A DNA stretch of 36,740 nt from the NCBI GenBank assembly GCA_018812265.1, contig JAHJDG010000149.1:1-36740 (forward strand), in the 5' to 3' direction. Numbering within the stretch: position 1 is the first letter of the stretch; every line of letters begins with the position of its first letter. Below the pieces are notes generated by a model. That model saw nothing but the letters and a program-made list of their open reading frames with translations, was not told the DNA's origin and did not search any database. The translations under genes and the position numbers were made by a program. Shown here piece after piece: positions 12,450 to 16,149 of the stretch. This stretch comes from a bacterium (GTDB lineage: Bacteria > Electryoneota > RPQS01).

Positions 12450-12818
12450 CAGGAGGATATTGGCAGAAAACCGCCGTTTTTCGATGTCGCTTGGTGAATT
12501 CATGGGAAGAAAGGAAGGGCGGGCGAGAAGCCGAGGGTGATGCTGATAATTTAGTCGCTGACAGAGGGAAAGTCAAGGAAAACTGAAAATTTGTTCAAGC
12601 GACGGTAACGGCTGGGATTGGGCGGAATTGGCATTGGAGATAGCGGGTGGTGGTGGTATGTGAGGAGGTCTGTAGTAATAGAATTCGCTTAGGCTTTAGA
12701 TTCAGATATTCCCAAGGGCAGATTATGCTGAGGTTATATCAATCATCGGAACACAGGAGATTATTTTTTTTAGAATTAGGATCATGGATGATATGTTCAG
12801 AGATATAGTTAGTTTTTG

Positions 12819-12847
12819 TTGACAATCATCTGAAATTTGTGTATAGT
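12819..12847 (+). promoter_or_regulatory. near-consensus sigma-70-type promoter
   Basis: TTGACA (12819-12824), a 17-bp spacer and TATAGT (12842-12847): a perfect -35 and a five-of-six -10. The predicted start is near 12854, 221 bases before the HD gene and 172 bases before the end of the U-tract at 13026. It is the best promoter match I found in the window. Confidence 0.7.
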
Positions 12848-12853
12848 GAAAAC

Positions 12854-13026
12854 CTCATCTCTTAGGGAAACCTTCCTGCATTGAAGACTGGCAGTTTGTT
12901 CTTGCTGATGTTCCAAGACACTCTGCATTATACGCGTCTTCTTCCATGAAACCTACTGGTTGGATAGTTGTCCTAGCCCTACCGGAATTGTAGCCTGCTA
13001 CAATCTTATGGTCGGGCTTTCTTTTT
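12854..13026 (+). ncRNA. candidate structured leader or small RNA
   Basis: The segment between the strong promoter and the terminator at 12975-13026 contains several nested pairings. A small hairpin lies at 12864-12877. A rod at 12883-12941 is built from GAAGAC/GTCTTC, GCAG/CTGC and TCTTG/CAAGA around a nine-base loop. Another small hairpin (AACC-TACT-GGTT) is at 12950-12961. No open frame with a start and ribosome binding site is apparent inside. It could be a free RNA of about 170 nt or an attenuating leader for the HD gene. I compared it by eye with 6S RNA and common riboswitches and could not match it. Confidence 0.4.
12975..13026 (+). terminator. two-tier intrinsic terminator or attenuator before the HD gene
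   Basis: An inner perfect 8-bp hairpin ATTGTAGC-CT-GCTACAAT (12986-13003) is enclosed by AGCCCTACC/GGTCGGGCT (12975-12983 with 13010-13018, one mismatch). TTTCTTTTT follows (13018-13026). The structure lies inside the transcript that would reach the HD gene 49 bases later, so read-through must be partial or controlled unless a second promoter exists. Confidence 0.75.
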
Positions 13027-13074
13027 GCACTTGGAAATCACCAATACGGTTGCACTATAGGGAAGTAATAGGTA

Positions 13075-14688
13075 ATGCGTGGGCATCGTGTATTTGATCC
13101 GATTTACGGGTACGTGCATCTGACCGATTCTGAATTTCGTCTAATTCGGTCTCCTCTGTTTCAGCGGCTTAACCTAATCCGTCAGCTCGGATTTGTGAAT
13201 GTCATGTTTCCGAGTGCAACACACACACGACTAAGCCACTCGCTCGGCGTGCTCCATATGGCTCAGCGAATGATCGATTCGGTTAACAAGAACGAACACA
13301 AGGCGGAGCAAGGAGACATCATCACGCCGAAGGATGCTGCAATTATACGATTTGCAGCTCTGCTTCACGATATTGGACACTTACCATTCTCACACGTTGG
13401 TGAACAAGCCTACTCTGCAGTGTTGGACGACTCATTATCTCGCAACGTTGATGTCGGGGATAAAGTTGGATTCAAAACAACAGATGCAATCCGCCTAACA
13501 TCGGGGAATCTCCACGAGCAGCTGTCTGCACGAATAATCCGAGAAGACAAGGAGATTGGAGAAGCATTCAAAGAGTATAATTCTTCCGCACCCCCGCGGG
13601 AACGCATCGACAAAGATGAAGTTGCGGCGCTCATAGAAGACACCTCGACAGATCAGAAGTCCTTTCTCAAATCATTTATTCATTCTGCAATTGATGCTGA
13701 CAGACTGGATTTCCTTAGTCGAGACTCGTATTTCGTGGGAAGTAATTATGGCCGCGTTGAGACCGAGACAATCATCAGGAAACTGCGGTTTGTCCAAGTC
13801 AAGGAAGGAAGAACACCTGCGGAGGAGTGGTGGGAATTATGTCTGGATTCGGATGCTGGGCTTGTAGCAGATCATTTTCTCCTTTCTCGGTTCTACTGGT
13901 ATGCAATGTTGCTTGGCCAGCCACGCATCCTTTATCTCGATCTATTAACGAAGAACGTGATGAAGTATCTCATCAATACGAATAGAATCTGCTGCATAGA
14001 TCAACTTGACAAATTGACAATAGCCATAAGAGAAAAGAGGCATATGCATGAGTTCATGGAATTGCAGGATTCTGGTGTTATTATGGCGATGCGTAGATGT
14101 CATAATGAATGGGACGGCAATGACTCAATATCGGAGTTAGAAAAGGAACTGGATACAGCGATCAAGGTCCTGATGGGCGGGAACCTTGCGCATATGTTTT
14201 TGCGAAAACAAGGCCTCATGGAACACAAGGAATACCAAGACACATTTGATTCCTCTCGTCTTCACGAAGCTGAGAAATGCGCGACCGAGGAATTGCGCAA
14301 ACAAGAGAAGATCGACAAATCGCGAGCCTTTGTAAAATTTGTTCACAAGGCAAGAAACCTGCACGTATGGGCACCTGATTGCAGGGGGGCTGAATTCGAA
14401 GAGGATTGGCGTGACCATGTACTAATAAAATGCGATCGTGACGGCCATCCAAAGTGTGTGCCAATCCAGCTAGCTAACACAAATGTTCTACACAGAATCG
14501 GTCTTTCTCGTATACAGGATGGGAACAAACCAAAGGAAAAATCTTCGCTTGTGAGCGTCAGCTTCGCAACATTCATCCTATGGCCATCAACGATCAAGGA
14601 GGATCAATACTCGGGAATAGAAGAAATTTTGAACAAGTACTTTGGCGAATTAACACAACCTTTTCATGAGGAGCTCGTCAATGGATAG
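13075..14688 (+). CDS. HD-domain phosphohydrolase, SAMHD1/YwfO-like (predicted dNTPase)
   Basis: A 537-residue protein whose N-terminus follows the COG1078 pattern: DPIYGYVHLTDSE, then SPLFQRLNLIRQLG and THTRLSHSLGV. Metal-ligand candidates are H55, H98-D99 (in ALLHDIGHLPFSH) and D207 (in IDADRLDFLSRD); H102 matches the catalytic His region. Characterised relatives (SAMHD1, enterococcal EF1143, B. subtilis YwfO) hydrolyse dNTPs, so that reaction is predicted here. The C-terminal 200 residues are less conserved and may be regulatory. AGGG at 13059-13062 precedes the ATG. The gene is clearly AT-richer than its neighbours and overlaps the next gene by eight bases. A role in phage defence by dNTP depletion is possible but inferred only from the enzyme class and gene setting. 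Confidence 0.85.
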   Translation: MRGHRVFDPIYGYVHLTDSEFRLIRSPLFQRLNLIRQLGFVNVMFPSATHTRLSHSLGVLHMAQRMIDSVNKNEHKAEQGDIITPKDAAIIRFAALLHDIGHLPFSHVGEQAYSAVLDDSLSRNVDVGDKVGFKTTDAIRLTSGNLHEQLSARIIREDKEIGEAFKEYNSSAPPRERIDKDEVAALIEDTSTDQKSFLKSFIHSAIDADRLDFLSRDSYFVGSNYGRVETETIIRKLRFVQVKEGRTPAEEWWELCLDSDAGLVADHFLLSRFYWYAMLLGQPRILYLDLLTKNVMKYLINTNRICCIDQLDKLTIAIREKRHMHEFMELQDSGVIMAMRRCHNEWDGNDSISELEKELDTAIKVLMGGNLAHMFLRKQGLMEHKEYQDTFDSSRLHEAEKCATEELRKQEKIDKSRAFVKFVHKARNLHVWAPDCRGAEFEEDWRDHVLIKCDRDGHPKCVPIQLANTNVLHRIGLSRIQDGNKPKEKSSLVSVSFATFILWPSTIKEDQYSGIEEILNKYFGELTQPFHEELVNG

Positions 14689-15211
14689 CAAGGGACTTCT
14701 TCTGCGGCTGACACTCGATGCGTTACGCGACGCTGGCGTCTTCACGAATATTGATAATTTCGAAGGCCGCAAGAACGTTCAGAAATCACTTTACCTGCTA
14801 CAAGAGAATCGGCTCCCTTATGGGTACTTCTTTGGCTGGTACCTACGAGGCCCATACTCCAGTGGCCTGGCGAATGACTACTTCAAGGTGGCGGAGGACC
14901 AAAGCGATAGATACACGAAGCTCGCAAAGGATAAGACCCTATCTGAAAGCATTAGAGACAAAATAAAGCAACTGGTATCCCTCTTAAAAAGTGATAATTG
15001 GCAACTTAAAGATCAGTTAGAAGCTGCAGCATCTGCCCGGTTTATAATGGTGTCTGAATCACGCGATGCGCAGTCTTCGGTAGCAGAACTCAGAAAGCGC
15101 AAGCCTGGGTTACCGTTTGATGAGGGGAAGGTATTGGCATGCCTCAATTCATTAGAGCCCGTCAGTGATGCGAGGGGGAATGGGCATTCGGGACAGCAGG
15201 ACACTCCCTAA
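14681..15211 (+). CDS. YwgA-like protein (possible Panacea/DUF4065 relative)
   Basis: The 176-residue protein begins MDSKGLLLRLTLDAL and contains KNVQKSLYLLQE followed by GWYLRGPYSSGLANDYF (about residues 34-70). This K-Q-K-x-L-Y-L-L-Q ... W-Y-x-x-G-P-Y-S pattern is typical of YwgA-type proteins and resembles the Panacea domain found in some antitoxins. No catalytic residues can be assigned. The correct start is ATG 14681, with AGGAG at 14669-14673 inside the end of the HD gene. The 8-base overlap implies translational coupling and a shared function. As I recall, ywgA and the HD gene ywfO are also neighbours in Bacillus subtilis, which would support a conserved pair. A symmetrical terminator follows at 15262-15296. 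Confidence 0.7.
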   Translation: MDSKGLLLRLTLDALRDAGVFTNIDNFEGRKNVQKSLYLLQENRLPYGYFFGWYLRGPYSSGLANDYFKVAEDQSDRYTKLAKDKTLSESIRDKIKQLVSLLKSDNWQLKDQLEAAASARFIMVSESRDAQSSVAELRKRKPGLPFDEGKVLACLNSLEPVSDARGNGHSGQQDTP

Positions 15212-15261
15212 TCTCATCATCGAACGTAGCAAATCTAACCTAAGACCGACAGCGGATTAGC

Positions 15262-15296
15262 AAGAAACCCACATGTTTCGGCATGTGGGTTTCTTT
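15262..15296. terminator. bidirectional terminator after the HD/YwgA pair
   Basis: A perfect 14-bp stem AAGAAACCCACATG/CATGTGGGTTTCTT (15262-15275 with 15282-15295) encloses a six-base loop. A and T ends give a U-tract on both strands, so it could serve the YwgA-like gene and the convergent CPBP gene. Confidence 0.85.
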
Positions 15297-15416
15297 ATCT
15301 CTGGGGCATTTAGTCTTTCATCTCTATTATCAAGCGAGTTCGCCGATATAAGGGTTTTCCGCGGTCACTTTAAGCAGGTGAAGGGATACCTCGCGCGGCT
15401 ACTTTTTCTTTTATAA

Positions 15417-15436
15417 GGGCACGGCATGCCGTGCCC
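15417..15436. repeat. 20-bp palindrome, GGGCACGG type
   Basis: GGGCACGG-CATG-CCGTGCCC, a perfect palindrome followed by CTAC. It lies 12 bases beyond the 3' end of the CPBP protease gene. It shares the 8-4-8 layout of the other palindromes here but not their sequence. Confidence 0.75.
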
Positions 15437-15447
15437 CTACCGTTGAT

Positions 15448-16149
15448 CTACATGATGTACCCCACCAGCGTTCCGGCAACATTGCCGAGGAAGTGGACGA
15501 GAATGGCGGGGAGGAGGCTGCCGGTTTTTTCGCGGAAGTAGCCGGCCACGCCGCCCAGCAGCAGCGCGAAAATCAGAATCGGAATCACGCCCGCCGGAGC
15601 CATTCCCGCCGTGAGCAGCATGAGATGCATGACCGAAAACAGCACCGCCCCCACCGTCACCGGCAGACTGAGCCGCACGCCGAACAGGTTCACGCCGCGT
15701 TCGCGGAGTGGATCGAGATAGCTCTGTAAGAGTCCGCGATAGAGAACTTCTTCGCAGGTGCTGGCCCAAATCCAGACGATGAGCACGATTTGCAGGAACG
15801 TCAGGTCGGCCGTCGCCGGATTCTCGCCCCCGCCGAACAGCGCTTCCGCGAGTCCGGTCGCGAGTCCCAAAGCGATTCCCCAGATGAGAATCGGTTTCAG
15901 AAAACTCGCTTTCGGACTGACGAAACCGAAGCGCGAAAAATTCCCCCGGCCGAGAATCATGATGAGCGCCAGCGAGAAAACGAGAATCCCCGCCTGAATG
16001 ACCAGTCCCGACAGCCACGGCATACCGGGCTGCATGGTGGTGAAGGTCATCATCGCCGCCGAAGCCAAAAACAGCACCAGCATCCACAGGCAGCAGGCGA
16101 TGAGTACGCGCGAAATCGCGTAGGCCAGCGTCGGTCGTTCGGTGTTCAT
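15448..16149 (-). CDS. CPBP-family intramembrane metalloprotease
   Basis: A 233-residue membrane protein with about seven or eight hydrophobic segments and the CPBP (CAAX protease and bacteriocin-processing, ABI) motifs: E133-E134-x3-R138 (CEEVLYRGLL), H175 (SVMHLMLL) and H219-x3-N223 (VHFLGN). These residues form the glutamate/histidine active site within the membrane. Bacterial members cleave peptides or take part in bacteriocin self-immunity, but most have no known substrate. The gene is monocistronic in appearance and convergent with the YwgA-like gene, with a shared terminator and a palindrome in between. Its base composition matches the GC-rich surroundings, so it does not look like part of the AT-rich island. 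Confidence 0.88.
   Translation of the reverse strand: MNTERPTLAYAISRVLIACCLWMLVLFLASAAMMTFTTMQPGMPWLSGLVIQAGILVFSLALIMILGRGNFSRFGFVSPKASFLKPILIWGIALGLATGLAEALFGGGENPATADLTFLQIVLIVWIWASTCEEVLYRGLLQSYLDPLRERGVNLFGVRLSLPVTVGAVLFSVMHLMLLTAGMAPAGVIPILIFALLLGGVAGYFREKTGSLLPAILVHFLGNVAGTLVGYIM

Follow-up and report, generated by a model that had tools for sequence, protein, structure and literature searches.

A predicted HD-domain hydrolase gene coupled to a DarG-domain-like partner gene: a candidate toxin-antitoxin-like module in an Electryoneota genome

What purpose is served by two overlapping genes in an AT-rich island of a bacterial contig, one encoding an HD-domain protein and the other a small partner? 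The pair lies in contig JAHJDG010000149.1 (assembly GCA_018812265.1, Electryoneota), positions 1 to 36,740 of which were analyzed and are called the window here. The original prediction, made from the sequence letters, had proposed an undescribed defense cassette that joins a SAMHD1-like enzyme to a regulator or antitoxin. Such pairs recur in many groups of bacteria, with the two genes in either order, and therefore this one is probably an undescribed toxin-and-inhibitor module. In the specific form to which we lean, a deoxynucleoside or nucleoside triphosphate [(d)NTP] hydrolase acts as effector and is held inactive by an inhibitor of the DarG-domain type, the whole being toxin-antitoxin-like. 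No such pair is described in PADLOC-DB 2023 or the papers found, as had been supposed. The genes at issue are as follows.

13075 to 14688, plus strand: HD gene, 537 amino acids, intact; a SAMHD1/EF1143/aq_1910-type hydrolase, the predicted effector.
14668 to 14673, plus strand: ribosome-binding site GAGGAG of the partner gene, inside the HD gene.
14681 to 15211, plus strand: partner gene, 176 amino acids, a stand-alone DarG C-terminal-domain/YwgA-like protein; predicted to inhibit the HD protein as its antitoxin.

The two reading frames overlap by exactly 8 bases, ATGGATAG. The product of the first matches Pfam HD domain PF01966, and its nearest solved structures are 2hek (aq_1910 type; E = 4.5e-26), 2q14, 2o6i (EF1143), and SAMHD1 itself; Dgt-type structures fall far behind, at E = 1e-6 or weaker. 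Across 22 paired HD proteins, the metal ligands H55, H98, D99, and D209 are invariant, as are H102, H107, E110, and H147, so that the catalytic histidine/acid dyad and second histidine (H107, E110, and H147) are present. This residue set is the one expected of an active SAMHD1-type hydrolase, an activity that we predict from sequence, and the SAMHD1-like assignment of the original prediction stands.

Regulation may be another matter. In the alignments made here, the SAMHD1 allosteric-site residues D137, Q142, and R145 correspond to R25, Q30, and N33 in the window protein, with the glutamine alone kept. The R145 equivalent is G in the closest relative, Calditrichaeota bacterium DeMMO2_36 (genome G032), and R in 19 of the 22 paired proteins, while the Y315 equivalent is F213 in the window and one other protein and Y in the remaining 20. 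Allosteric residues are a regulatory feature, variable in other members too, and not part of the catalytic definition; given the changes from R145 to N33 and from Y315 to F, nucleotide regulation of this HD protein may differ from that of SAMHD1. Its C-terminal region, over 200 residues long, aligns well with the G032 protein only.

The HD gene alone is not diagnostic of a pair, because plasmid-borne matches mostly have other neighbors. On rhizobial and Roseibium plasmids (loci L007, L008, and L009), genes for a radical SAM protein, a 3'-5' exonuclease, and an AAA ATPase precede the HD gene in a conserved four-gene order that differs from the HD-partner pair. On plasmids of Rhizobium and Desulfosarcina (L012, 4463-7352; L013, 4397-7268), a hypothetical protein of ~135 to 140 amino acids is directly followed by a large HD protein of ~810 to 825.

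The identity of the partner is what moves the argument toward inhibition. It matches no Pfam family, and an initial scan of the genome collection with a single protein sequence as the query gave no matches. It had been likened to the Panacea domain, a likeness that we abandon: the DUF4065 (Panacea) profile matches neither this protein nor six relatives, and the relation that can be detected is instead to DarG, in its toxin-binding C-terminal domain. Searched against PADLOC-DB, the partner alone gave a weak DarG match (5e-4), and in the alignment of its family, 8 of 8 members matched PADLOC DarG (best, 2.6e-16). Among PDB sequences, the family profile found 7yk3_B (E = 7e-4), the toxin-binding domain of DarG in the Mycobacterium tuberculosis DarTG complex. 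It also recovered many proteins of 340 to 375 amino acids, and the N-terminal part of the member scanned is a Macro domain, i.e., that member is DarG. With 176 residues and no Macro match, the window partner corresponds to the second DarG domain only; no Pol-beta nucleotidyltransferase domain was detected in it. An AlphaFold model (AF2, 12 sequences) was confident, with a mean predicted local distance difference test score (pLDDT) of 88.5, and a Foldseek search of that model against PDB returned 7yk3_B and 7yk3_D as the sole confident matches (probability, 1.00; template modeling [TM] score, 0.57). By this comparison, the modeled fold is that of the DarG toxin-binding domain. Isolated from the rest of DarG, that domain binds DarT and removes its toxicity with no glycohydrolase activity of its own (PMC7003065; PMC11543638), and this relation leaves the inhibitor, or antitoxin, reading of the partner better founded than before.

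The second line of evidence is recurrence. In a survey of 386 genomes from 341 genera, 16 of 25 stand-alone partner-family genes were next to an HD gene, compared to ~0.005 expected by chance if genomes hold ~3,300 genes; the coupling first read from this locus is therefore not confined to its lineage. Half of the partner loci in named genomes (6 of 12) have an HD neighbor, those six being from a Calditrichaeota metagenome-assembled genome (MAG), Hydrogenedentota, Planctomycetes (two), Chromatiaceae, and a deltaproteobacterium. At two loci outside the 386-genome set (L130 and L131), the partner adjoins an HD gene that is truncated where the contig ends. Both gene orders occur, all 21 pairs measured have an overlap or a gap within 50 nucleotides, and pairwise distances among HD proteins co-vary with those among partners (Mantel r, 0.82; 0 of 10,000 permutations). 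These comparisons support functional coupling of the two proteins well beyond this lineage. At least five pairs combine an intact partner gene with an HD gene interrupted by a frameshift or stop (L037, 994-2213; L126, 4649-5892; L128, 2970-4033; L142, 644-1932; L038, 6533-7501), interruptions that could stem from errors of assembly, from a length bias, or from selection acting against the HD protein.

The same small domain is also found in antitoxin-like settings with unrelated toxins, which is why we argue that beside an HD protein it neutralizes as well. In archaeon DeMMO2_7 (L147, 1229-2130), a gene of this family is followed directly by a PemK/MazF toxin gene, with HD absent, and the two are a candidate toxin-antitoxin pair in which the antitoxin would be of an unusual kind; in L040 (4934-6236, G006:C101), a PIN-domain gene precedes the YwgA-like gene, again with no HD gene. 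Read from sequence, the domain is fused to the C terminus of a type I specificity-like subunit in L110 (3905-5644), and in L105 (3832-8400) to that of a type IIG-like restriction enzyme, a large protein. Recurrent four-gene cassettes in same-phylum genomes (L118, 3940-6807; L120, 3942-6821; L113, 195-3278) encode a YwgA-like protein together with three others, namely a probable membrane protein, a small protein resembling a nuclease, and one of ~410 to 460 amino acids, and are possibly another undescribed system.

From these observations, we infer direct binding, inhibition, a deoxynucleoside triphosphate (dNTP) substrate, a trigger, and phage defense. In the model proposed, the HD-domain triphosphohydrolase would be a potentially harmful effector, and the partner, a stand-alone toxin-binding domain, would bind it and keep it inactive, with overlapping, translationally coupled genes holding the two proteins in balance. 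An invader or stress might remove, occupy, or degrade the inhibitor or shift the nucleotide pool; such a trigger, perhaps phage infection, would free the hydrolase, which would deplete dNTPs and so stop replication. Antiviral activity is known for SAMHD1-like hydrolases in animals and for dGTPases in bacteria; a role of this pair in phage defense is plausible, though we would not yet call it likely. As for surroundings, noted locus by locus, one pair (G235) sits beside or among genes for a DUF1156 methylase and a PbeA-like helicase. Another, in G393 (L128, 1-8601, G393:C1), lies between HmaA-like and HmaB-like genes, and that of the Chromatiaceae MAG (L150, 1-12201) lies beside HmaA, HmaA being an SNF2 helicase and HmaB an adenine methylase, which suggests that the HD-partner pair may accompany Hma-type systems as an accessory.

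The island itself bears on whether the window pair belongs to the ordinary gene complement of its host, and the following features frame the two genes.

12501 to 15450, no strand: AT-rich island, with a G+C content (GC) of 0.43 to 0.50, compared to ~0.51 to 0.65 elsewhere and ~0.59 in the flanks.
12819 to 12847, plus strand: sigma-70-type promoter, TTGACA-17-TATAGT, with 11 of 12 consensus bases.
12854 to 13026, plus strand: leader of ~173 nucleotides with a terminator-like hairpin before the genes; fold only moderately more stable than that of shuffles (z, -2.3).
~12975 to 13018, with a T run to 13025, plus strand: last hairpin of the leader, strong, then TTTCTTTTT; z, -2.9, 0 of 200 shuffles.
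15262 to 15295, plus strand: closing intrinsic terminator, a near-perfect 15-bp stem; z, -6.6, 0 of 200 shuffles.

This anatomy agrees with the original prediction on the AT-rich island, the near-consensus promoter, the gene overlap with its internal ribosome-binding site, and the closing symmetrical terminator; the structured, terminator-ended leader holds as well, with the strength residing in its last hairpin. Promoter-like sites across the region are no commoner than in shuffled sequence (2 observed, 5.0 expected), so only the quality and position of this promoter merit attention; the G032 homologue has its own 11-of-12 promoter ~160 nucleotides upstream of its HD gene. The leader hairpin falls between promoter and genes; the leader is a possible attenuator or small RNA. 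Against Rfam, the leader matched no family (the sole match, a small nucleolar RNA at E = 0.58, is chance), and in a MAFFT alignment its sequence is unconserved in G032, the only close relative, so our interpretation does not lean on the leader.

The GC content at third codon positions (GC3) is 0.473 in the HD gene and 0.528 in the partner gene, both far below the range of 0.636 to 0.818 in the reference set, 21 other genes checked in the window itself. Sequence profile searches found a close pair in one further genome of the phylum, G032 (HD, 55%; partner, 53%), and in neither sister species G034 nor the other same-phylum genomes searched; divergent pairs are present in G013, G035, and G038. 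The window pair has a znu-type ATP-binding cassette (ABC) transporter on one side and CAAX-protease/oligopeptidase genes on the other, while the G032 pair is at a different locus, adjoining the C-terminal remnant of a type ISP restriction enzyme and near mutS2 and an aldo-keto reductase gene (both read from sequence). Because flanking gene order differs between related genera, an empty insertion site could not be demonstrated directly. From the outlying GC3 and the patchy distribution, the island is probably a horizontally acquired cassette, in keeping with the compact acquired cassette first proposed. No close relative of either protein was confirmed in viral contigs, the partner had no match in the phages or plasmids searched, and a fold search against viral structures gave nothing confident.

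Several observations weigh against an HD effector held by its inhibitor. The Mantel correlation may come partly from common host ancestry, and the DarG match, clear in structure, is modest (TM, 0.57; E = 5e-3). The predicted HD structure was of low quality (pLDDT, 54.8), too low to be used. About 100 of 115 HD genes of this type lack a detected partner; the partner therefore depends on HD more than HD depends on the partner, and many of these HD proteins evidently lack toxicity by themselves. A location among restriction or defense genes, a check suggested with the original prediction, was seen for some relatives but not for the window copy, which has no defense neighbors, or the Priestia copy (L016). 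The Priestia pair, of the same two families, adjacent and in the same order, sits in a core context between pta/hemQ/lipoate ligase and ywhD-type genes, and its partner is 11% identical to the window partner over the alignment. We take it to be the ywfO-ywgA locus of Bacilli.

Priestia thus introduces the main rival to an inhibitor module, a housekeeping role in nucleotide-pool control in which the HD protein trims dNTPs or damaged NTPs during normal growth, the small protein is its regulator, and the window copy is a transferred metabolic operon. The Priestia context, which fits the ywfO-ywgA neighborhood of Bacillus subtilis, favors such a role. So does a proposal (PMC4993169) that YwfO hydrolyzes modified trinucleotides promiscuously. 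However, the patchy distribution and foreign base composition of the window pair, the presence of some pairs inside defense loci, and a partner family held in common with toxin-neutralizing proteins speak against it, and we consider it unlikely while taking it seriously. Coupling and co-variation do not give the sign of an effect, and the loss of the R145 equivalent (N33) could mean that regulation differs; the partner might then be an activator, sensor, or specificity factor that forms an active antiviral hydrolase together with the HD protein. We regard this as improbable, since the homologous DarG domain inhibits by sequestration and the family is otherwise partnered here with toxins. Least probable of all is an HD protein acting on a non-dNTP substrate (such as a cyclic nucleotide, an alarmone, or the end of a nucleic acid), the partner again being its antitoxin. 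HD folds do catalyze varied reactions, and 2 of 22 paired proteins carry F213, but two dNTPases, EF1143 and SAMHD1, are among the closest solved structures, and the protein has the HE dyad.

An HD effector restrained by a DarG-domain-type inhibitor can be set beside several known systems. With the SAMHD1/EF1143 (YwfO, COG1078-type) dNTP triphosphohydrolases, the window protein shares the HD fold family and all metal and catalytic residues, and it differs in having N at the R145 equivalent, the long C-terminal region, and a linked inhibitor-like gene. The ywfO-ywgA pair of Bacilli joins the same families in the same order, with a core-gene context and very distant sequence setting it apart; the literature found on it held no functional study, and if our reading is true, it would supply a function for this uncharacterized pair. 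Panacea PanAT systems likewise combine a small promiscuous partner domain with several different toxins (PMC8832971; its main text mentions no HD toxin), but the unmatched DUF4065 profile led us to reject membership for the window partner.

An understanding of how cells keep such hydrolases from self-harm is only now emerging. Clover, in which the CloA dGTPase is an HD dNTPase with a linked negative regulator, the CloB nucleotidyltransferase (PMC12265719), uses a nucleotide signal. The window pair resembles it in coupling an HD dNTPase to a linked negative regulator, so that a logic of restrained nucleotide depletion is plausible and the pair may, by analogy, work like Clover. However, CloA is Dgt-like and the window HD protein is of the SAMHD1/EF1143 type, and the window partner has the fold of the DarG C-terminal domain rather than being a nucleotidyltransferase; since both HD subfamily and partner differ, we rejected membership in Clover. 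A protein inhibitor of the DarG toxin-binding family, if confirmed, would be a second and simpler restraint.

With type II toxin-antitoxin systems, the pair has in common overlapping co-directional genes, a small antitoxin-family protein, and conservation as a pair. We tentatively raise the broader idea of a widespread, undescribed type II toxin-antitoxin or antiphage system, in which an HD dNTPase is kept in check by an inhibitor from a promiscuous antitoxin superfamily whose members also restrain DarT, PemK/MazF, and PIN toxins. DarTG2 shares with the window pair a two-gene layout with a partner enzyme and, by fold and profile, the toxin-binding C-terminal domain of DarG; the window locus differs in having no macrodomain and no adjacent DarT, its neighbor being an HD hydrolase. 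If the model is true, this substitution would point to the DarG domain as an antitoxin module of general use that can be swapped between toxins.

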